From Candidatus Methylomirabilota bacterium (GTDB lineage: Bacteria; Methylomirabilota; Methylomirabilia; Methylomirabilales; Methylomirabilaceae): 42,424 bases of DNA. The position numbers and the translations under genes are program-made. Location of the stretch: the NCBI GenBank assembly GCA_028870115.1, contig JAGWQH010000039.1:1-42424 (forward strand), in the 5' to 3' direction. Each line of letters begins with the position of its first letter. Within the stretch, counting starts at the first letter, position 1. The notes beneath the pieces are model-generated. The model was not told where the DNA came from. It was given only the letters and a program-made list of their open reading frames with translations, and made no database searches. Below, one piece after another: positions 32,349-41,964 of the stretch.

Positions 32349-33311
32349 CTATGAAACCGTCTTCCGGTCGAAACGGAGGGTTGATTCGATAAAGCGGATG
32401 GTCGCGGATCTCGAGCGCATCACAAGGGAGTGGGTCTGGGCTCCTCCGCCGAAGAAGCGCACTCCTTTTAGGAGATCACCATCGGTGACCCCGGTTGCGG
32501 CAAACATGATGTCGATCTCTCCCCCGCCGGTCAGATCGGAGATCGTAAATACCCGGCCCAGATCCCGGATCCCCATTCTCAGCGCCAGCTCTGCTTCCTC
32601 CTCCGTTAGCGGCTTCAGGCGACCCTGCATGTCGCCTCCTATACACTGAAGCGCCGTCGCCGCGATCGCGCCTTCTCGCGCCCCTCCGACCCCCATGAGG
32701 ACATCGACGCCTGTCCCTTCGAATGCCACCGCTATGGTGGCGGAGAGGTCGCCATCCTGAATGAGTTTAATGCGCGCACCGATTCCGCGGACTTGTCTCA
32801 CCAGTTCGGCATGACGAGGTCGGTCAAGGATGACCACCGTGATATCCTCGACGGAACAGTTCATTGCTTCAGCAATGGCGCGAAGGTTCTTCTCGGGAGG
32901 GGCGGTGATATCGATCGCCCCGGCGGCCTTGGGCCCGACGGCGATCTTTTCCATATGGGCATCCGGCACCTGGCGCAGCGACCCCTTCTCAGCCGCGGCA
33001 ATAACGGAGATGGCATTCGGTCGGCCTTGGGCCACGATCGCCCCGCTTTCAACGGCGTCAAGCGCTATATCCACTTGAAGGGCATCGCCCTGGCCAAGGA
33101 CCTCTCCGACGTAGAGGGTTGGCGCCTCACCGTGCTCACCCTTACCGATAACGATGGAACCCCTGAAGCTGACGTTATCGAAGGCATGGCGCATGGCGTC
33201 GATCGCAGCCTGCTCAGCCGCGCTCGGATTGCCCAACCCCATCCAACGAGCCGATGAAATGGCGGCCATCTCGGTCGCCCGCACTAACTCAAGCGCCAGG
33301 TTTCGGTCCAT
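32349..33311 (-). CDS. GlpX-like fructose-1,6-bisphosphatase family protein, divergent active site
   Basis: A 320-residue protein of the class II FBPase (GlpX) family over its full length (LVRATEMAAISSARWMGLG, VGGAREGAIAA, FAATGVTDGDLLKG). Several metal-site residues known in E. coli GlpX differ. The motif GEGExDEAP is GKGEHGEAP (Glu57 replaced by Lys, Asp61 by Gly), Asp33 lines up with Glu, and DPxEGT is DAVESG. Asp85, Glu88 and Glu213 equivalents are kept. It may be a variant phosphatase, a different hydrolase or inactive; calling it FBPase would be unsafe. The ATG at 33311 is preferred over 33332. It leads the glpX-hisS-aspS transcript, with a good promoter upstream. Confidence 0.85.
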   Translation of the reverse strand: MDRNLALELVRATEMAAISSARWMGLGNPSAAEQAAIDAMRHAFDNVSFRGSIVIGKGEHGEAPTLYVGEVLGQGDALQVDIALDAVESGAIVAQGRPNAISVIAAAEKGSLRQVPDAHMEKIAVGPKAAGAIDITAPPEKNLRAIAEAMNCSVEDITVVILDRPRHAELVRQVRGIGARIKLIQDGDLSATIAVAFEGTGVDVLMGVGGAREGAIAATALQCIGGDMQGRLKPLTEEEAELALRMGIRDLGRVFTISDLTGGGEIDIMFAATGVTDGDLLKGVRFFGGGAQTHSLVMRSRSATIRFIESTLRFDRKTVS

Positions 33312-33393
33312 CGTCTCTCTCTTTTCTGTCACCGCGAAGCTGCGAGCGGTTCAATGCTGTTCGTTCGCGCTCCACATCCCTAAAGTCGACAGG

Positions 33394-33422
33394 AGTATAG
33401 GAAATACGCGGGATCGAGTCAA
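33394..33422 (-). promoter_or_regulatory. Promoter of the glpX-hisS-aspS operon
   Basis: TTGACT (33417-33422), a 17-nt spacer and TATACT (33394-33399) on the minus strand, both one base from consensus, about 80 nt before the glpX-like ATG. This is one of the best promoters in the window. Confidence 0.65.
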
Positions 33423-33468
33423 GCCCAACTCCTGCAGTTGCCTTCACCGAGAAGCCGTAAGACCTTAG

Positions 33469-33651
33469 CCTGCATTATTCATGAATGTCTGGTGTTCATT
33501 TATACATGCCTATACTACCAGTGAAATGAGCGAGATGGGCTTTGACACCATGTCGATCCCGGTCTTCAGGGTCATGCTATGCGAAGGCTGTATTGTCGCT
33601 CCGCAGCGAAGACTGCAAATAAGATTGGGCCGCCTTCATGAATAATGCGGG
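33469..33651. mobile_element. MITE-like element with 17-bp terminal inverted repeats
   Basis: CCTGCATTATTCATGAA (33469-33485) is repeated inverted at 33635-33651 (reverse complement CCCGCATTATTCATGAA), one mismatch in 17. The 183-bp element has no coding capacity. It is flanked by TTAG on the left and TTAA on the right, near-copies that could be a target duplication. Ends starting with CC and a 4-bp duplication fit IS1380-type elements, of which this could be an internal deletion. It fills most of the gap 33333-33695. Confidence 0.6.
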
Positions 33652-33695
33652 TTAAGCTGCCTACAGCCGCCGTTTAAGCCATACCGGACATCTTT

Positions 33696-34601
33696 CTAAT
33701 CTTCGCACGCGCCGTGCTTCTCGAGCAGCTCAGCAACCTTCGTATCCCCATGCCACAAGGCATACTTCAGGGCTGTCCCGCCGTCGCTGGCTTTGACGTT
33801 CACCTCGGCACCTTTATTGAGCAGCAGCTCGACAATCCCGGTATGCCCCTTGCCGGACGCATACATCAGCGCCGTCACGTTATTATTATCCCTTATGTTC
33901 ACCTCAGCACCTTTATTAAGCAGCAGCTCTACCACCTTGGAACGTCCATGCAAGGCCGCGCGTATGAGGGCGGTTCCGCTATCTTTATTGCGGGCGTTCA
34001 CGTCGGCGCCTTTGGCGAGCAACTGCTCTACAACCCCGGTATGGCCATTCTCGGATGCGCATATCAGGGCGGTCGCACCGACCTTATTACGGGCGTTCAC
34101 GTCGGCGCCTTTGGCGAGCAACTGCTCTACAACCCCGGTATGGCCATTCTCGGAGGTCATGATCAGGACCGTCGCGCCATTGGCAGCTCTCGCGTTTACG
34201 TCGGCGCCTTTGGCGAGCAACTGCTCTACAACCCCGGTATGGCCATTCTCGGACGCATACATCAGGGATGTGAAGCTGTCTTTATCCTTCGCGTTCACGT
34301 CGGCGCCCTTGTTGAGCAGGGCCTTCGCAATCCCGGCATGTCCATGCCAGGACGCGCGTATCAGAGCGGTCAGGTCATTATTGTCTCTCGCGTTCACGTC
34401 GGCGCCTTTGGCGAGCAGTAATTCCGCAATCCCGGCATGTCCATGCCAGGCCGCATGCATAAGGGCTGTCCAACCTTCTCGATCTCTCGCATTCACGTCG
34501 GCGCCTTCAGCGAGCAGACGCCCGACTTTTTCTGCCTCACCGGATTGGGACGCCTCGATAAGCTTTCCACTACCCCCAAATATTGAGCCTAGGAAACCCA
34601 T
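33696..34601 (-). CDS. Ankyrin-repeat protein 1 of 5
   Basis: A 301-residue protein of about eight 33-residue ankyrin repeats plus capping units (consensus G-x-T-A-L-x-x-A-x-x-x-G-H-x-x-V-V-E-x-L-L-x-K-G-A-D-V-N-A). Ankyrin arrays bind other proteins. The N-terminus is a short hydrophobic stretch, MGFLGSIFGGSGK, shared with the four genes upstream. It is not a signal peptide, but could touch a membrane. Repeats four to six are almost identical at the DNA level. AGGAGG lies four bases before the ATG. It is the last gene of the sub-operon 36386-33696. The partner is unknown. Confidence 0.9.
   Translation of the reverse strand: MGFLGSIFGGSGKLIEASQSGEAEKVGRLLAEGADVNARDREGWTALMHAAWHGHAGIAELLLAKGADVNARDNNDLTALIRASWHGHAGIAKALLNKGADVNAKDKDSFTSLMYASENGHTGVVEQLLAKGADVNARAANGATVLIMTSENGHTGVVEQLLAKGADVNARNKVGATALICASENGHTGVVEQLLAKGADVNARNKDSGTALIRAALHGRSKVVELLLNKGAEVNIRDNNNVTALMYASGKGHTGIVELLLNKGAEVNVKASDGGTALKYALWHGDTKVAELLEKHGACED
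33991..34286 (-). repeat. Three near-identical 99-bp ankyrin units
   Basis: Units beginning near 33991, 34090 and 34189 share the block CGGCGCCTTTGGCGAGCAAC and then CTGCTCTACAACCCCGGTAT with only scattered changes. The period is exactly 33 codons. They lie inside the first ankyrin gene and point to recent unit duplication. Confidence 0.85.
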
Positions 34602-34622
34602 AGAACCTCCTTGCGGTCTTTT

Positions 34623-35534
34623 TTAGCGTACTCCGTGCTTCTCCAGCAGTTCAGCAACCCTGGAATGCCCGTTCGAGGATGTATACATCAAGGCTGTCAC
34701 ACCATCATGATCTCTTACGTTCACATCGGCGCCGTGATGGAGCAACAGCTCTGCAACCTTAACATGGCCATTCGCAGAGGCCCGTATCAGGGCGGTCCCG
34801 CCATCACTCGCCTTGGCGTTTACGTCGGCGCCGTGATAGAGCAGGACCTCAGCAACCCCGGCGTGCCCATTTAAAGAAGCCCGTATCAGAGCGGTCCCGC
34901 CATCATCAGGCCTGGCGTTCACATCGGCGCCGTGATGGAGCAGCACCTCCGCAACCTCGGTATGGCCATTCCACGCCGCCCGCACCAGGGCGGTCCCGCC
35001 ATTAAGGTCTCTCACATCCATATCCGCGCCACCACGCAGCAGCACCTCCGCAACCTTGGCATGGCCATTCCACGCCGCCCGCACCAGGGCGGTCCAGCCC
35101 CATTTATCTTTCGCGTTCATATCAACACCGTGATTGAGAAGCACCTGGACGGCTTCAGCATGCCCATGCCAGGCCCCTCGCATCAGGGCGGTAAAGCTGT
35201 CTTTATCATGAGCGTTCACATCGGCGCCGTGATTCAGCAGCAGCTCTGCAACCTTCGTATGCCCGCGCCAGGCCGCGCGCATCAGGGCGGTCCCGCCGTT
35301 ATTGTCTCTCTCGTTCACATCGGCGCGGTGATGGAGCAACAGCTCTGCAACCCCGAAATACCCCAAGAAGGACGCATGTATCAGAGCTGTCCAGCCGTAT
35401 TTGTCCTTCGTATTGACATTGGCGCCTTCGGCTAACAGCCTCTTGACTTTTTCGGTATCCCCGGATTTAGACGCCTCGATGAGCTGTTCACCAAGCTTCC
35501 CACTGCCCCCAAATAATGAGCTCAGCAAACCCAT
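34623..35534 (-). CDS. Ankyrin-repeat protein 2 of 5
   Basis: A 303-residue ankyrin-repeat protein that starts MGLLSSLFGGSGKLGEQLIE. About eight repeats follow, with insert variations such as HHGADVNARPDDG and RGGADMDVRDLNG. No enzymatic domain is present. AGGAGATGAT precedes the ATG. The stop is 21 nt before the next ankyrin gene (33696-34601), so the two are co-transcribed. Overall similarity to its neighbours is high throughout, consistent with whole-gene tandem duplication followed by divergence of the repeat surfaces. Confidence 0.9.
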   Translation of the reverse strand: MGLLSSLFGGSGKLGEQLIEASKSGDTEKVKRLLAEGANVNTKDKYGWTALIHASFLGYFGVAELLLHHRADVNERDNNGGTALMRAAWRGHTKVAELLLNHGADVNAHDKDSFTALMRGAWHGHAEAVQVLLNHGVDMNAKDKWGWTALVRAAWNGHAKVAEVLLRGGADMDVRDLNGGTALVRAAWNGHTEVAEVLLHHGADVNARPDDGGTALIRASLNGHAGVAEVLLYHGADVNAKASDGGTALIRASANGHVKVAELLLHHGADVNVRDHDGVTALMYTSSNGHSRVAELLEKHGVR

Positions 35535-35567
35535 ATCATCTCCTTCTCATGCGTGGGACCAGGCATC

Positions 35568-36386
35568 TTATTTTGTGAGCGCGTTATGCCTTTCCAGCAG
35601 TTCAGCAATCTTAGAAGTCTTATTGCGCGATGCATACATCCAGGCCGTCCCCTCCATATTATCCTTCGCGTTGACATCGGCACCTTTATTGAGCAGCAGC
35701 TCTGCCACCCTGGCGTGCCCATGCCAGGCCGCTCGTATCAGGGCGGTCCCTCGATTGTTGTCCCTCGCGTTCACATCCGCGCCGTGATTGAGCAGCAATC
35801 CCACTACTCCTGCATGCCCATGCCACGCCGCACGTATCAAGGCGGTCGCGCCATCCCTCGCCTTCGCATCCACATCAACACCTTTGGTAAGCAGCAACCC
35901 TACAACCGCGCCATGCCCTTTCTCCGCCGCCCGTATCAGGGCCGTAACGCCATTCGCAGCCTGCGCGTTCACATCGGCACCCTGAGCAAGCAGCAGCTCC
36001 GCAACCTTACCGTGTCCGTGCCAGGCAGCGTGAATCAGAGCTGTCCAGCCGTCATTATCTTTCACATTCATATCAGCGCCTTTCGCGAGCAGCAGCCCCA
36101 CAACCCCGGCATGCCCATGCTCGGACGCATGCATCAGTGCGGTCGTACCATCGCCGGCCTTCGCGTTGACGTTGGCGCCTTTGGTGAGCAGCAGTTCGGC
36201 AACCCCCGTATGCCCATGCCCGGCCGCATGCATCAGCGCGGTCGTACCATCTCTGTTGCCCGCGTTCACGCCGGCGCCTTCAGCGAGCAGGCGCTTGACC
36301 TTTTCGATGTCGCCGGACTTGGACGCCTCAGTGAGCCGTTTCCCCAGCTTATCTTCGGCTTCAAAAAATGAGCTGAAAAATCCCAT
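35568..36386 (-). CDS. Ankyrin-repeat protein 3 of 5
   Basis: A 272-residue ankyrin-repeat protein with one repeat fewer than the other four. It starts MGFFSSFFEAEDKLGKRLTE, replacing the usual GGSGK linker with a charged one. The longer frame to 36401 is rejected because AGGAGG lies four bases before the ATG at 36386. It appears to be the first gene of the downstream sub-operon: the gap to the gene above it (186 nt) is far larger than the 21-33 nt within each group, so a separate promoter is expected, though no clear one was seen. Confidence 0.9.
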   Translation of the reverse strand: MGFFSSFFEAEDKLGKRLTEASKSGDIEKVKRLLAEGAGVNAGNRDGTTALMHAAGHGHTGVAELLLTKGANVNAKAGDGTTALMHASEHGHAGVVGLLLAKGADMNVKDNDGWTALIHAAWHGHGKVAELLLAQGADVNAQAANGVTALIRAAEKGHGAVVGLLLTKGVDVDAKARDGATALIRAAWHGHAGVVGLLLNHGADVNARDNNRGTALIRAAWHGHARVAELLLNKGADVNAKDNMEGTAWMYASRNKTSKIAELLERHNALTK

Positions 36387-36572
36387 ACAACCTCCTCTCA
36401 ACCCTCCAGCCCTTCCGTCCAGTCCGGCAAGCAGCCACTGTCGAACCCCCGCCAGGATGCCGGATTTGAGCCGGCCGTTCTAAATTTCGAGACCTTACAG
36501 CACGAGCCTGTACGAGTCACGTACATGGCCCAATTGAGACATTACCATGAGCGGTACCGGCAGAGCTTGGTC

Positions 36573-37484
36573 TCAGCGCGCCGTGTGGCCTTCCAGCAGG
36601 TCAACAATATTCTGATGCCCATTTCCAGACGCATAGTATGCGGCTGTACCACCTTTACTGTCCCTGGCCTTGGCATCGGCGCCGTTATTGACCAACAGCT
36701 CCACAACCTTGATGCGCCCATACCACGCGGCATGCATCATGGCCGTACTGCCGTCTTTCGCCTGCGCGTTGGCATCGGCGCCGCGATCGATCAGTAGCTT
36801 GACGATCCCGAATTGCCCTTCTGCAGCCGTGCGCATCAACGCTGTCCAGCCCTGTCTGTCTTGTGTGTTAATATTGGCGCCTCGATCGAGCAGCAGCTTG
36901 ACGATCTCAGAATGACCCTTCCCGGACGCGGTAATCAGGGCTGTTCCGCCGTCTTTCGCCTGCGCGTTCACATCGGCGCCGCGATCGAGCAACAGCTTGA
37001 CGATTTCAAATTGTCCTTCCGCGGACGCGATGATCAGGGCTGTACTGCCGTTGCTCGCTCTGGCCTCCATATCGGCATCCTTATTGAGCAGCAGCCGTAC
37101 AAACTCGGCATGCCCCTTGTCGGACGCATACATCAGGGCCGTCCAGCTATGTTGATCGCTCACATTCACATCAGCACTCTTATGAAGCAGCCGCTCTGCA
37201 ACTCCCGCATGCCCGTGCCACGAGGCATGCATTAAGGCTGTCCAGCCATTGTTGTCTCTCACATTCACATCGGCATCTCGATTGAGCAACAGCTCTACAA
37301 CCCCGGTATGCCCATGCCGAGAGGCATGCATTAAGGCTGTCCATTCCTCCCTATCTCTCGCGTTCACATCGGCGCCTTCGGCCAATAAGCTCTTGACTTT
37401 TCCGGTATCTCCGGATTCAGACGCCTCGATAAGCTGTCCACCAACCTTCCCGCTACCCCCAAATATTGAGCCCAGGAAACCCAT
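36573..37484 (-). CDS. Ankyrin-repeat protein 4 of 5
   Basis: A 303-residue ankyrin-repeat protein starting MGFLGSIFGGSGKVGGQLIE, nearly the same N-terminus as the first gene of the cluster. Its repeats differ more in composition: several have EIVKLLLDRGADVNAQAKDG and ADMEARASNGSTALIIASAE, so its binding surface may differ. GGAGGATAC precedes the ATG. It follows the fifth ankyrin gene by 21 nt and is probably co-transcribed with it. Confidence 0.9.
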   Translation of the reverse strand: MGFLGSIFGGSGKVGGQLIEASESGDTGKVKSLLAEGADVNARDREEWTALMHASRHGHTGVVELLLNRDADVNVRDNNGWTALMHASWHGHAGVAERLLHKSADVNVSDQHSWTALMYASDKGHAEFVRLLLNKDADMEARASNGSTALIIASAEGQFEIVKLLLDRGADVNAQAKDGGTALITASGKGHSEIVKLLLDRGANINTQDRQGWTALMRTAAEGQFGIVKLLIDRGADANAQAKDGSTAMMHAAWYGRIKVVELLVNNGADAKARDSKGGTAAYYASGNGHQNIVDLLEGHTAR

Positions 37485-37505
37485 GTATCCTCCTTCGTCT
37501 TGTTC

Positions 37506-38417
37506 TTAGCGCGCCCCGTGCTTCTCCAGCAGTTCAGCTACCTTGGAATGTCCACTCGAAGACGCATGCATCCTGGCCGTCTGGCGATCATGATCCTTCA
37601 CGTTCATATCAGCGCCTCGATTGAGCAGCATCCCTACAATCCTGGCACGCCCTCTCTCAGCCGCATAGATCAGGGCCGTACCGTCCTTGTTGTCTTTCGC
37701 GTTCGCATCAGCACCATGCTTAAGCAGCAGCTCTACCACCCCGGAATGCCCTCTCCACGCCGCGCGGATCAGGGCAGTCGCGCCACTATGATCATTCGCA
37801 TTCACGTCAGCGCCGTACTTGCGCAGCAGTTCTACCGCCCCGGCATGTCCATTCCACGCCGCACGCATCAGGGCAGTCCAGCCGTCTTTATCCTTTGCGT
37901 TCACGTCGGCGCCGTGCTTGTGCAGCAGTTCTACCACTCCGGAACGCCCGTGCCCGGCGGCATGCATCAGAACCGTCCAGCCGTCTTTATCCTTTGCGTT
38001 CACGTCGGCGCCGTGCTTGAGCAGCCGCTCTACGATCTCGGAGTGCCCATGCCCGGCGGCATGCATCAGAACTGTCCAGCCGTTATGATCCTTCGCGTTC
38101 ACGTCGGCGCCATGCTTGAGCAGCCATTCTACGACGTCGGCATGCCCTTTCCAGGCCGCACGCATCAGGGCGGTCCAGCCGTTATGATCCTTCGCGTTCA
38201 CGTCGGCGCCATGCTTGAGCAGCAGTTCTGCAATCTTGGAACGCCCATGCCAGATCGCATGCATCAAGGCGGTCCAGCCATGTTTATCGCCCGCGTTTAT
38301 GTCAGCGCCTTCAGCTAACAGGCTCTTGACTTTTTCGGTTGTTCCAGCCTTAGATGCTTCAATGAGTTTTTTACCAACCTTCCCGCGGCCTTCAAATAAT
38401 GCGCTAAAAAAACCCAT
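37506..38417 (-). CDS. Ankyrin-repeat protein 5 of 5
   Basis: A 303-residue ankyrin-repeat protein starting MGFFSALFEGRGKVGKKLIE, the most upstream of the cluster. Its central repeats are very regular (KHGADVNAKDKDGWTVLMHA repeated with few changes), close to an idealised ankyrin consensus. The frame opens at 38438, but AAGGGGGGG lies four bases before the ATG at 38417. The upstream gap to the MFS gene is 116 nt. All five proteins lack cysteines of interest, signal peptides or catalytic domains; they may act as adaptors. Confidence 0.9.
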   Translation of the reverse strand: MGFFSALFEGRGKVGKKLIEASKAGTTEKVKSLLAEGADINAGDKHGWTALMHAIWHGRSKIAELLLKHGADVNAKDHNGWTALMRAAWKGHADVVEWLLKHGADVNAKDHNGWTVLMHAAGHGHSEIVERLLKHGADVNAKDKDGWTVLMHAAGHGRSGVVELLHKHGADVNAKDKDGWTALMRAAWNGHAGAVELLRKYGADVNANDHSGATALIRAAWRGHSGVVELLLKHGADANAKDNKDGTALIYAAERGRARIVGMLLNRGADMNVKDHDRQTARMHASSSGHSKVAELLEKHGAR

Positions 38418-38533: not shown

Positions 38534-39778
38534 CTACGCTTCCGAAGCTGTAGGCGACCGCAATATGTGAGCTCTATGTCGAACACACAATAATACAAGA
38601 AACGTCGTCATCGCAATTGCCGAAGCTAAGAGGTAGATCAGCCGATAGCCGAACTGCTCTGCGATAATTCCGAATATAAACGACGCAAGCGCATGACCCA
38701 GCAACATCGCAGTGCTGAACGCGCCGATGGATCGTCCACGCCCTTCCGAGTCCGCCAAGTCAATTGTGTAGGCGCTCAGGGCCGGAAAAAGCAAGCCATG
38801 CGCCATTCCGGTAAGCGTCCCGACCAACAGCAGACCAATCAGAGAGCCGAGCCAGACAAGACCCAGGGTGCCCGATCCCATGAGCAGCAGGGCAGGAAGA
38901 ATGACGCGCTGACGCCCCCATCGGTCAGATAGTCTACCACACGCCAACCGGATGCCGATCGCAGCGACGCTGTACGCAATATAGAATCCACCGATGTGCG
39001 ATAACCCAGCCTGTGTCGCGTAGGTCGGCAGGAATACAAACACCGTCCCGGAGGCCAAACCGAACACTAGGGAGAGGAGAATCGGCGGGAGGATACGCAC
39101 CGAGGGGATCAAGAAAACGAGGCCTGAGGAGACAGATTCGCGGGGCGTCGATGAGAGGTTACGAAACGTAAGGCTGGCTAGAAGGCAGGCGGCTGCGGCG
39201 ACAGCAGCAGTCAAGAAAAATACCGAATACCCCGCACGATGGATCACTTGCTCCCCGAGAGCGGGGGAGAGCGCAATCGTGATAAGTCCGGAGATCCCGA
39301 AAAGGCCCACCGCCTCCCCGCGACGGCTCGACGGAACGATATCAGCCACCAGCGTCAGATTTGCAATATAGAAGGTCGAGTACGCCATACCCTGCAGGAT
39401 GCGAAAGAGAACGAACCGCGCATCCATGTGGGTCGAGAACGCAAAGCCGACCGCGGCCAGCATCCCCAATGTCGATCCCAGCAGCAGAAATCGCTTGCGC
39501 TCGAAACGGTCAATAAGGGCTCCGGCTAGTGGTTGCCCAAGAATGGCCGCAAGGCTGTAGCTTCCCATGACCCAACCGATCTGCGACTCGGTCCCGCCAA
39601 GCGTCTTGATGTAAAGGGGAAGCAGGCTGAAGGCATTGAGGCTCGCGAAAAAGAAAAAATTGGAGAGGCAGGCGATAAAGAAGTTGAGGCTGGAAATCGT
39701 ATCGTCGACAGAGCCATCCCGCTCCTGACGAGCCCGGTTTGACAACATTACGAGTTGACTCTTACCTGATCGATCCAT
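38534..39778 (-). CDS. Major facilitator superfamily transporter
   Basis: A 414-residue MFS permease with twelve predicted transmembrane segments in two halves. The loop 2-3 motif A is GALIDRFERKRFLLLG, echoed in the second half by ACGRLSDRWGRQRVILP. It is a secondary transporter, most like the drug/metabolite efflux type, but the substrate cannot be told from sequence. A 45-nt leader separates the ATG at 39778 from a good promoter that contains a palindrome, so local control is possible; an internal ATG at 39748 is a less likely start. Confidence 0.88.
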   Translation of the reverse strand: MDRSGKSQLVMLSNRARQERDGSVDDTISSLNFFIACLSNFFFFASLNAFSLLPLYIKTLGGTESQIGWVMGSYSLAAILGQPLAGALIDRFERKRFLLLGSTLGMLAAVGFAFSTHMDARFVLFRILQGMAYSTFYIANLTLVADIVPSSRRGEAVGLFGISGLITIALSPALGEQVIHRAGYSVFFLTAAVAAAACLLASLTFRNLSSTPRESVSSGLVFLIPSVRILPPILLSLVFGLASGTVFVFLPTYATQAGLSHIGGFYIAYSVAAIGIRLACGRLSDRWGRQRVILPALLLMGSGTLGLVWLGSLIGLLLVGTLTGMAHGLLFPALSAYTIDLADSEGRGRSIGAFSTAMLLGHALASFIFGIIAEQFGYRLIYLLASAIAMTTFLVLLCVRHRAHILRSPTASEA

Positions 39779-39850: not shown

Positions 39851-39938
39851 GATCGTTCGCCTGCCAGATTGAGCCACTGACCAAAGCATGATGGTAGCCA
39901 GAGGCTCTTGGCCAATTACCCACAAGGAGGGATGCGCG

Positions 39939-40169
39939 ATGACAACCACTGCGTACGTCCTGATCGAAGGTGCATCGGATCAGACGGCCAACATCGTAAA
40001 AGCGTTACAGAAAATAAAGGGGGTAAAGTCGGCTCATGCCGTGACCGGACCCTACGACGTCATCGCGTGCGTTGAGGCAACCGATGTCGGTACAGTTGGG
40101 ACAGTTGTCCTCTCGAAGATCCGCACCTTGAAGGGCGTCATGCGAACAGTGACCTGCGTCGCCGTCTAG
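39939..40169 (+). CDS. Stand-alone Lrp/AsnC ligand-binding (RAM) domain protein
   Basis: A 76-residue protein consisting only of the Lrp/AsnC effector-binding domain: MTTTAYVLIEGASDQTANIV, then VKSAHAVTGPYDVIACVEA, then KGVMRTVTCVAV. There is no DNA-binding helix-turn-helix. Such single-domain proteins form ring-shaped oligomers and bind small molecules such as amino acids; the role is unclear. The frame opens at 39888, but AAGGAGGG lies seven to eight bases before the ATG at 39939. It is divergent from the MFS gene and convergent with pepA. Confidence 0.87.
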   Translation: MTTTAYVLIEGASDQTANIVKALQKIKGVKSAHAVTGPYDVIACVEATDVGTVGTVVLSKIRTLKGVMRTVTCVAV

Positions 40170-40257: not shown

Positions 40258-41778
40258 TCAACTCTTCCCAGTCTCGTCAAAGCTCATCGCGAAATAGATC
40301 AGGGTGCGGACCATCGCTCCAGTTGCCCCCTTCACCTGATACCCGCAGTCCTTCTCGGTCTGCGAGGTTCCCGCGATGTCCAGGTGAACCCACGGAGTCT
40401 TCCCGACAAAGTTGGCCAGGAGCTTCGCGCCCGTAATCGGCCCGGCCTTTCTGCCGCCGATATTCTTCATATCCGCGCAGTCGCTCTTGATCTGTTCACC
40501 GTACTCGTCATCCATGGGCAGTTCCCAGATCTTCTCGCTGGCCGCCTCGCTGGCCTGCTTCACCCGCTGCATCAGTTCCGGGTTATTGGTAAACGCACCG
40601 GTTCGAACCGACCCGAGAGCGATAACGCACGCCCCCGTCAATGTCGCCACATCAACGAGATGGGTAATGCCCCTGTCGCAGGCGTAGCACAAGGCATCAG
40701 CCAGGATCAGTCGCCCCTCGGCGTCGGTGTTGATCACCTCGATTGTTTTGCCATTCATGGCCTTGACGATATCCCCAGGGCGCTGGGCTGTTCCGCTGGG
40801 CAGGTTCTCGGTCGCCGGCACGATGGCTGTCGCATCCACCGGCAGCTTCAACTCCGCAATCCCCTTGATCGCTGCGAGGACCACCGCCCCGCCGGCCATA
40901 TCGCCCTTCATCGCCTCCATCCCCTCGCTCGGCTTGATTGAGATTCCTCCGGAATCGAATGTGAGCCCTTTGCCCACCAGACCGAGGCGTGGACCGGTCC
41001 CTTTTCCTTTCTTCCCCTTGTAACTGACCTCAATCAGCTTCGGGGGCTCCTGGCTGCCCTGAGCCACTCCCAGCAGCGCCCCCATACCGAGCTTCTTCAT
41101 ATCGGCGCGGTCCAGGATTTTGATGGTGAGCCCAGACCCGCTCGCCATCGTCTTGGCCCGTACTGCCAGTTCCGAAGGGGTCAGCGTATTCGCCGGCTCA
41201 TTCACCAAGTCGCGGGCAAAGCTCACGGCCTCAGCCAGGATCCGGCCGCAACGCACCCCCTCCTGCATTGTGGAGACCTTGGCGCTGTCGCGCTCCAGCA
41301 ACGTCAGCTTTTGCACGACCTTCTCCCCGTTCTCGTCCGGTTTCTTATATTTATCAAATCGATAGAGGCCCAATAACGCTCCTTCAGTCACCGCACATGC
41401 CGCCTGGCCGGCGTCCAGCCCTCCGATACCGGCGCCGTGAACGATGGACCCCACCGTCCGCGCCCCCACCCCGCGCAAATAGCGCATCGCCTCCGCCGAG
41501 GCCGAGCGTACCCGATCTAGGGTAAACTCCTCCTGCTTGCCCAGTCCAATCACCAGAACCCGGGTTACCGGAAGCTGCCCGGTAGTATGCAGCAGGAGCC
41601 GCTCATGCAGTTTGCCTTTGAACTCCTGCCGGCGGATGGCGGCGGTGATCGACCCGCCGAGCGCTTGGTCCACTGCGCCGGTCGCCCCGCCGGGACGCTC
41701 CGCCCCCTCGAAGAGATTCACGATAAGCGTATCCCCTTTATAGGACAGCAGATCCTGTGCCTTGATCTCTACCTTCAC
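40258..41778 (-). CDS. pepA: Leucyl aminopeptidase (M17, PepA)
   Basis: A 506-residue M17 aminopeptidase that removes N-terminal residues from peptides in the cytoplasm using two metal ions. Metal and catalytic residues lie in VGKGLTFDSGGISIKPSEGM, AMKGDMAGGA and the signature NTDAEGRLILADAL. The N-terminal macro-like domain covers about residues 1-165. The start is the GTG at 41778 with AGGAG seven bases upstream rather than the ATG at 41808. It lies 187 nt downstream of the pafA stop on the same strand. Trimming of proteasome products is a plausible link. Confidence 0.94.
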   Translation of the reverse strand: MKVEIKAQDLLSYKGDTLIVNLFEGAERPGGATGAVDQALGGSITAAIRRQEFKGKLHERLLLHTTGQLPVTRVLVIGLGKQEEFTLDRVRSASAEAMRYLRGVGARTVGSIVHGAGIGGLDAGQAACAVTEGALLGLYRFDKYKKPDENGEKVVQKLTLLERDSAKVSTMQEGVRCGRILAEAVSFARDLVNEPANTLTPSELAVRAKTMASGSGLTIKILDRADMKKLGMGALLGVAQGSQEPPKLIEVSYKGKKGKGTGPRLGLVGKGLTFDSGGISIKPSEGMEAMKGDMAGGAVVLAAIKGIAELKLPVDATAIVPATENLPSGTAQRPGDIVKAMNGKTIEVINTDAEGRLILADALCYACDRGITHLVDVATLTGACVIALGSVRTGAFTNNPELMQRVKQASEAASEKIWELPMDDEYGEQIKSDCADMKNIGGRKAGPITGAKLLANFVGKTPWVHLDIAGTSQTEKDCGYQVKGATGAMVRTLIYFAMSFDETGKS

Positions 41779-41964
41779 TCGATCACTCCTTTCAAAGGCC
41801 ACACCCACCTCGATGGCGCAAAAATAGGAGGGATGGCGACTGTGCCACCCCTCTCTCTTCGCGCCACCGTCGGTACGGCTATCCTCTCAGTGATTCTCCA
41901 TCCCTCTATATCCCCATACCGGCATTCGGCGGACCGAGTCAGGGCGAGTGAAACCCGCCCCTAT

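Follow-up and report, generated by a model that had tools for sequence, protein, structure and literature searches.

Why should a free-living bacterium carry a head-to-tail run of five genes that encode little but ankyrin repeats, and what holds such a run together? The question is raised by positions 33696-38417 of contig JAGWQH010000039.1 (assembly GCA_028870115.1), a stretch of 42,424 nucleotides that is referred to here as the window and is the whole of contig C39 in a genome (G000) of 2.81 Mb in 122 contigs. The source genome is that of a Candidatus Methylomirabilis, an NC10 methane oxidiser, and members of this genus are free-living, nitrite-dependent methane oxidisers and not intracellular bacteria. 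Pure ankyrin proteins of free-living bacteria have, to our knowledge, almost no assigned function, and in the literature searched the terms 'Methylomirabilis' and 'ankyrin' occurred together only in an unrelated review of complexome profiling. Comparison with relatives G001 to G014 points to an answer that we hold at a probability of roughly 0.6: the five genes, here called slots A to E, are part of an array that has been vertically maintained in the crown clade of the genus, each slot being a putative protein-binding scaffold retained under purifying selection with its concave face preserved.

All five genes are intact open reading frames (ORFs) on the minus strand, transcribed from A to E, and each start has a Shine-Dalgarno-like sequence just 5' of it, mostly GGAGG and in slot A AAGGGGGG. 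A preliminary description of the locus was accurate on its basic layout, which is one of five paralogues of 272-303 residues (303, 303, 272, 303 and 301 codons from A to E) separated by exactly 21, 186, 33 and 21 nt, and also in stating that the proteins hold only ankyrin repeats after a common N-terminus. Pfam ankyrin families (PF12796, PF00023) span each protein with 33-residue repeats above the curated score (Ank_2 E-values 1.6e-56 to 1.5e-87), no other credible domain was found in the five by the Pfam scan, and every paralogue begins with a sequence of the MG(F/L).. type. Slots B to E are 51-60% identical to slot A, and chance can be discounted as the source of the pattern. An AlphaFold2 model of slot A was built from 19 aligned sequences of the genus. 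The model comprises nine helix pairs (18 helices) at a mean pLDDT of 94.3, with low confidence limited to the flexible residues 1-11, and the array proteins are described here as predicted ankyrin folds. Among solved folds, the closest are an extended DARPin and ankyrin-1 (PDB 6mol and 7uzu; TM 0.93 and 0.91, root-mean-square deviation 1.2), which share the regular 33-residue ankyrin solenoid; unlike these, however, the array proteins are natural bacterial paralogues with no assigned ligand.

Searched with a profile of the five proteins, other genomes of the genus yield tandem arrays, and genomes elsewhere in the class yield weaker hits to ankyrin proteins, most of them scattered. The location is constant, downstream of pafA, pepA, an lrp-like gene and a gene for an MFS transporter, and in nine relatives (G001, G003, G004, G005, G007, G008, G009, G010 and G013) the array directly follows the MFS gene, although contig ends interrupt some of these copies; G012 (FeB_30) has array fragments. 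Because the same genes lie in the same order in independently assembled relatives, the array is not an assembly artefact, a possibility that the preliminary description had raised. Across relatives the order of slots is A-(B)-C-D-E-F-G, and the arrays of REEB33 (G001), Ru_enrich_MO2 (G007), groundwater bin 663 (G010) and G005, a single contig of 2,752,854 bp that we take to be M. oxyfera, are the same array as that of G000, with the same slots, order and left flank and similar lengths. The G000 copy differs in having slot B, in lacking slots F and G (which several relatives carry, and which were not found in G000), in its shorter gaps, in an A-like copy displaced to contig C99 and in a new right-hand neighbour, glpX. 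Slot A orthologues in G001 and G010 are 90% and 85% identical to it. In G006 and G011 the same MFS gene is not followed by an array, and none was found in G002, where the contig ends inside the MFS gene; a pepA tree unites these three (92/90) apart from the clade of the ten genomes with an array (94/95). G014 is uninformative, as its contig C17 stops where the array would start and pepA is missing too. On these sequences, the array is a character of the crown Methylomirabilis clade, and the three deepest-branching species yielded no copy.

The array genes cluster by slot across species and not by genome in a maximum-likelihood tree that comprises 59 proteins, with bootstrap/SH-aLRT supports of 82/80 for slot A, 99/91 for B, 100/100 for C, 94/91 for D, 98/92 for E and 100/100 for both F and G. 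The slots are therefore old, separately maintained paralogues, and concerted evolution was rejected, since paralogues within a genome are not homogenised. Exchange between species is another matter. Between G005 and G007, identity is ~82% in the left flank, ~73% in slot A and ~96% in slot C (by slot overall, ~70 to 97%), and slots F and G with the next oxidoreductase/cytochrome b block reach ~90-98%, a pattern which suggests that array segments have been exchanged and that these two arrays form a mosaic. The high-identity stretch of slot C is at L115:7700-8200 (G005) against L113 (G007), beside the diverged slot A. The original M. oxyfera enrichment served as inoculum for that of M. lanthanidiphila (PMC6094997). 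Slot length also varies, slot C having 272 residues in G000 against 237-239 in relatives (237 in L106, L113, L114 and L115) and slot A 303 against 237 at L117:11404-12132; these differences correspond to ~1-2 whole 33-residue repeats, and repeat number would thus change by loss or gain of units.

Selection on the array genes is purifying. The ratio of nonsynonymous to synonymous substitution (dN/dS, Nei-Gojobori) between slot orthologues is 0.11-0.46, as compared with about 0.10 for pepA, about 0.15 for the MFS gene and 0.05 for pafA. When nonsynonymous differences are expressed over mean synonymous differences for each ankyrin position, pooled over slots and repeats, the maximum is 0.72 and none reaches 1. 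The fastest positions are 17, 25, 26, 33, 18, 2 and 22. Positions 3, 5, 13 and 14, which we take to be part of the target-binding set in DARPin design, are slow. Mean amino-acid difference between orthologues rises from 0.15 in the framework to 0.25 at concave positions 5/13/14, 0.37 at the turn tips and 0.45 at convex positions 17/18/22/25, with a convex minus concave difference of 0.19 (bootstrap interval 0.14-0.25). Furthermore, Trp occupies position 13 in 38% of array repeats and in 2.8% of 428 repeats from other genera, an indicative contrast, as the latter were picked by similarity and by pattern.

It is possible, but unlikely, that the genes are mostly dispensable duplicates, a by-product of recombination between repeats with no function for each slot. 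Loss or gain of slots B, F and G, the rearranged right end of the array and the mosaic identities would all fit such an origin. Against it, frames are largely intact in ~10 species at synonymous divergences of ~0.1-1.3 with dN/dS well below 1, and slot order and most lengths have been kept.

The preliminary description had proposed that the proteins could be variable binding adaptors, a family with surfaces that would diversify toward changing targets. What stands of this proposal is a tandem pure-ankyrin family, most likely of binding scaffolds, in which the number of slots varies from species to species; repeat-edge positions 2, 26 and 33 that change faster than the framework, and the recombination mosaic of G005 and G007, could be counted in its favour. 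Diversifying binding, however, predicts faster change on the binding surface, and is disfavoured because the concave face changes more slowly than the convex one, with no raised change at concave binding positions and with slots that stay distinct across species. No diversifying selection was found, and we regard this explanation as improbable. Indeed, the finding named in advance as telling against variability, the same genes one-to-one and slowly evolving in all relatives, largely describes the array: the genes correspond one-to-one by slot, although they evolve faster than pepA and pafA and are not in all relatives.

According to the retained-scaffold reading, the array would have arisen by old tandem duplications downstream of the MFS transporter gene, and each product would be a single-domain solenoid located in the cytoplasm, in which eight to nine ankyrin units follow a short hydrophobic N-terminus. 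Each slot would be kept separately as a protein-binding scaffold, with the constant concave face (Trp at positions 5 and 13, Arg, His or Tyr at 10, His or Asn at 14) as the preserved ligand side while the convex face drifts. The MGFFSSLF-type N-terminus may tether the protein to a membrane or to a partner. Several points weigh against this account. The ankyrin genes evolve faster than their housekeeping neighbours pepA and pafA; slot D of G001, cut by a contig end and assigned by position outside the tree, is only 59% identical to that of G000; Trp at position 13 could reflect paralogue ancestry rather than function; the analysis of positions pools repeats and uses simple counting, which could miss selection on single codons; and the argument for membrane tethering comes from the N-terminal sequence only. 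A more elaborate version, in which the slots divide labour as membrane-tethered scaffolds of crown Methylomirabilis and a common Trp/His/Arg groove serves one class of ligand, for instance the membrane complexes that serve the intra-aerobic methane pathway, each having its own scaffold, seems to us a long shot.

Host-associated bacteria show an enrichment in ankyrin repeats (PMC3932732), and the numerous ankyrin-repeat proteins of Wolbachia and Legionella include host-directed effectors, which raises the possibility that the array products are delivered into a eukaryotic partner, for instance a protist grazer. Dot/Icm effectors are indeed among the named NCBIfam ankyrin models with matches, but these hits fall well short of the curated cut-offs and extend over the ankyrin repeats only. 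Moreover, groundwater and enrichment cultures are the sources of the related genomes, the array has been passed on vertically in the company of housekeeping genes, and no secretion signal was seen by eye, no survey of secretion systems having been made; delivery into a eukaryotic partner is improbable. A role in phage defence can be set aside as very improbable, as the PADLOC ankyrin-containing models, MZA among them, are matched by the repeats only and with scores well under the NCBIfam cut-off, with MFS and glpX genes as flanks in place of partner genes, no nuclease, sigma or other effector domain occurs in or adjoining the five proteins, and the constant chromosomal locus is atypical of defence islands, even if contig C36 has a dispersed paralogue close to an abortive-infection phage-resistance (AIPR) gene. 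Named effector and defence families were rejected alike, their matches running through repeats only.

Head-to-tail ankyrin genes are also found in Treponema (L143/L145), an alphaproteobacterium (L153) and Myxococcales (L157/L159), but there they are irregular open frames of ~130-1070 residues, without the fairly constant slot architecture of 237-306 residues seen here. The Methylomirabilis array corrects the expectation that ankyrin clusters must diversify. It offers as many as seven orthologous slots at a fixed locus, with clear-cut orthology and a boundary of presence and absence inside a single genus of methane oxidisers that matter environmentally, and so makes ligand fishing and comparative work straightforward.

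The right end of the array differs in G000. In relatives of the same clade with long enough contigs, glpX lies downstream of proC and/or yggU; in G000, contig C102 holds proC-yggU in its interior and the array is followed by glpX, with neither junction at a contig end. The glpX promoter (TTGACT-N17-TATACT, 33422-33394) is intact and conserved in the relatives compared, and homology to relatives ends just upstream of it, at about position 33440. A second A-type gene of G000, at C99:5084-5995, is beside a LysR-glycosyltransferase-AsmA block that is near the array in most relatives, at its right end in G008 and G009 and adjoining array genes in G003 (nzgw240) and G010. The simplest reading is that the array-glpX join would be a real rearrangement, seen among the genomes compared in G000 only; alternatively, it may be a chimeric assembly. 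The junction being specific to G000, the housekeeping surroundings on the glpX side are therefore recent, and the earlier remark that such a cluster is unusual among housekeeping genes loses force, because the glpX-hisS-aspS side belongs to this rearrangement. A lone ankyrin paralogue on contig C36 (L051:5410-6222; 270 residues, 64% identical to slot C) is ~1.3 kb from the AIPR gene (L051:7543-9414).

The spacing of the genes had been taken to indicate a two-gene and a three-gene unit. This is a reasonable local reading in G000 (A-B / C-D-E), but two sub-operons are peculiar to this lineage and not a conserved design, because the partition differs by species, being A / B-C-D-E in G008, with long gaps throughout in G009. 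In most relatives slot C is preceded by related spacers of ~165-190 nt, several with a promoter-like TTGACT-N17-TAAGGT read by eye; a consensus promoter scan did not call the corresponding GTGACT-N17-TAAGGT of G000. The scan did place a promoter-like TTGACT-N16-TATATT at 39850-39823, at the MFS gene, with which slot A (and B) would be co-transcribed. Palindromic sequences of the CTTCAGCCT/AGGCTGAAG type recur in the C-D and D-E gaps of L114, L115, L116, L106 and L117; the short gaps of G000 and G008 lack them. An Rfam scan of the whole window gave no match.

Features of the ankyrin array and its surroundings (window positions unless a contig is named)
Feature	Position	Strand	Basis and remarks
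glpX (class II fructose-bisphosphatase)	32349..33332	-	TIGR00330 3.2e-99; not the ancestral array neighbour
Array-glpX junction	33394..33695	-	Alignment; promoter scan
Candidate rearrangement sites	33440; G000 C102:91656-93080 (L217); C99 (L053)
Ankyrin slot E, 301 aa, last array gene in G000	33696..34601	-	ORF, Pfam
Ankyrin slot D, 303 aa	34623..35534	-	ORF, Pfam; 86% identity to G008 orthologue
Ankyrin slot C, 272 aa, shorter than A, B and D by one repeat	35568..36386	-	ORF, Pfam
186-nt spacer 5' of slot C	36387..36572	-	GTGACT-N17-TAAGGT; spacer alignment read by eye, weak
Ankyrin slot B, 303 aa	36573..37484	-	ORF, Pfam; slot only in G000, G001, G008, G009
Ankyrin slot A, 303 aa, first array gene	37506..38417	-	ORF, ATG at 38417 with AAGGGGGG upstream; Ank_2 2.1e-72
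MFS transporter, invariable neighbour on the left side of the array within the genus	38534..39778	-	Pfam MFS_1 3.3e-62; synteny
lrp-like, conserved left flank	39888-40169	+	Pfam, synteny
pepA, conserved left flank	40258-41808	-	Pfam, synteny
pafA (Pup ligase), C-terminal part, near contig end	41965-42369	-	Pfam, synteny

Two further observations concern the array and what lies beyond it. Downstream of the array, a block of FAD/Fe-S oxidoreductase, cytochrome b and cytochrome c genes is 96-98% identical between species, as against ~82% for its neighbours (L115:12500-17600 in G005 against L113 in G007; also in G004 and G014). Its cytochrome b was not found, at the threshold used, in G000, G001, G008, G009 or G013, and the block is likely a recently transferred redox island. 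Finally, open frames of 272 residues run antisense through the ankyrin genes on the plus strand of the window (35553-36371 and 37500-38318), with comparable ORFs in relatives, and are most likely a by-product of the codon structure of the repeats.

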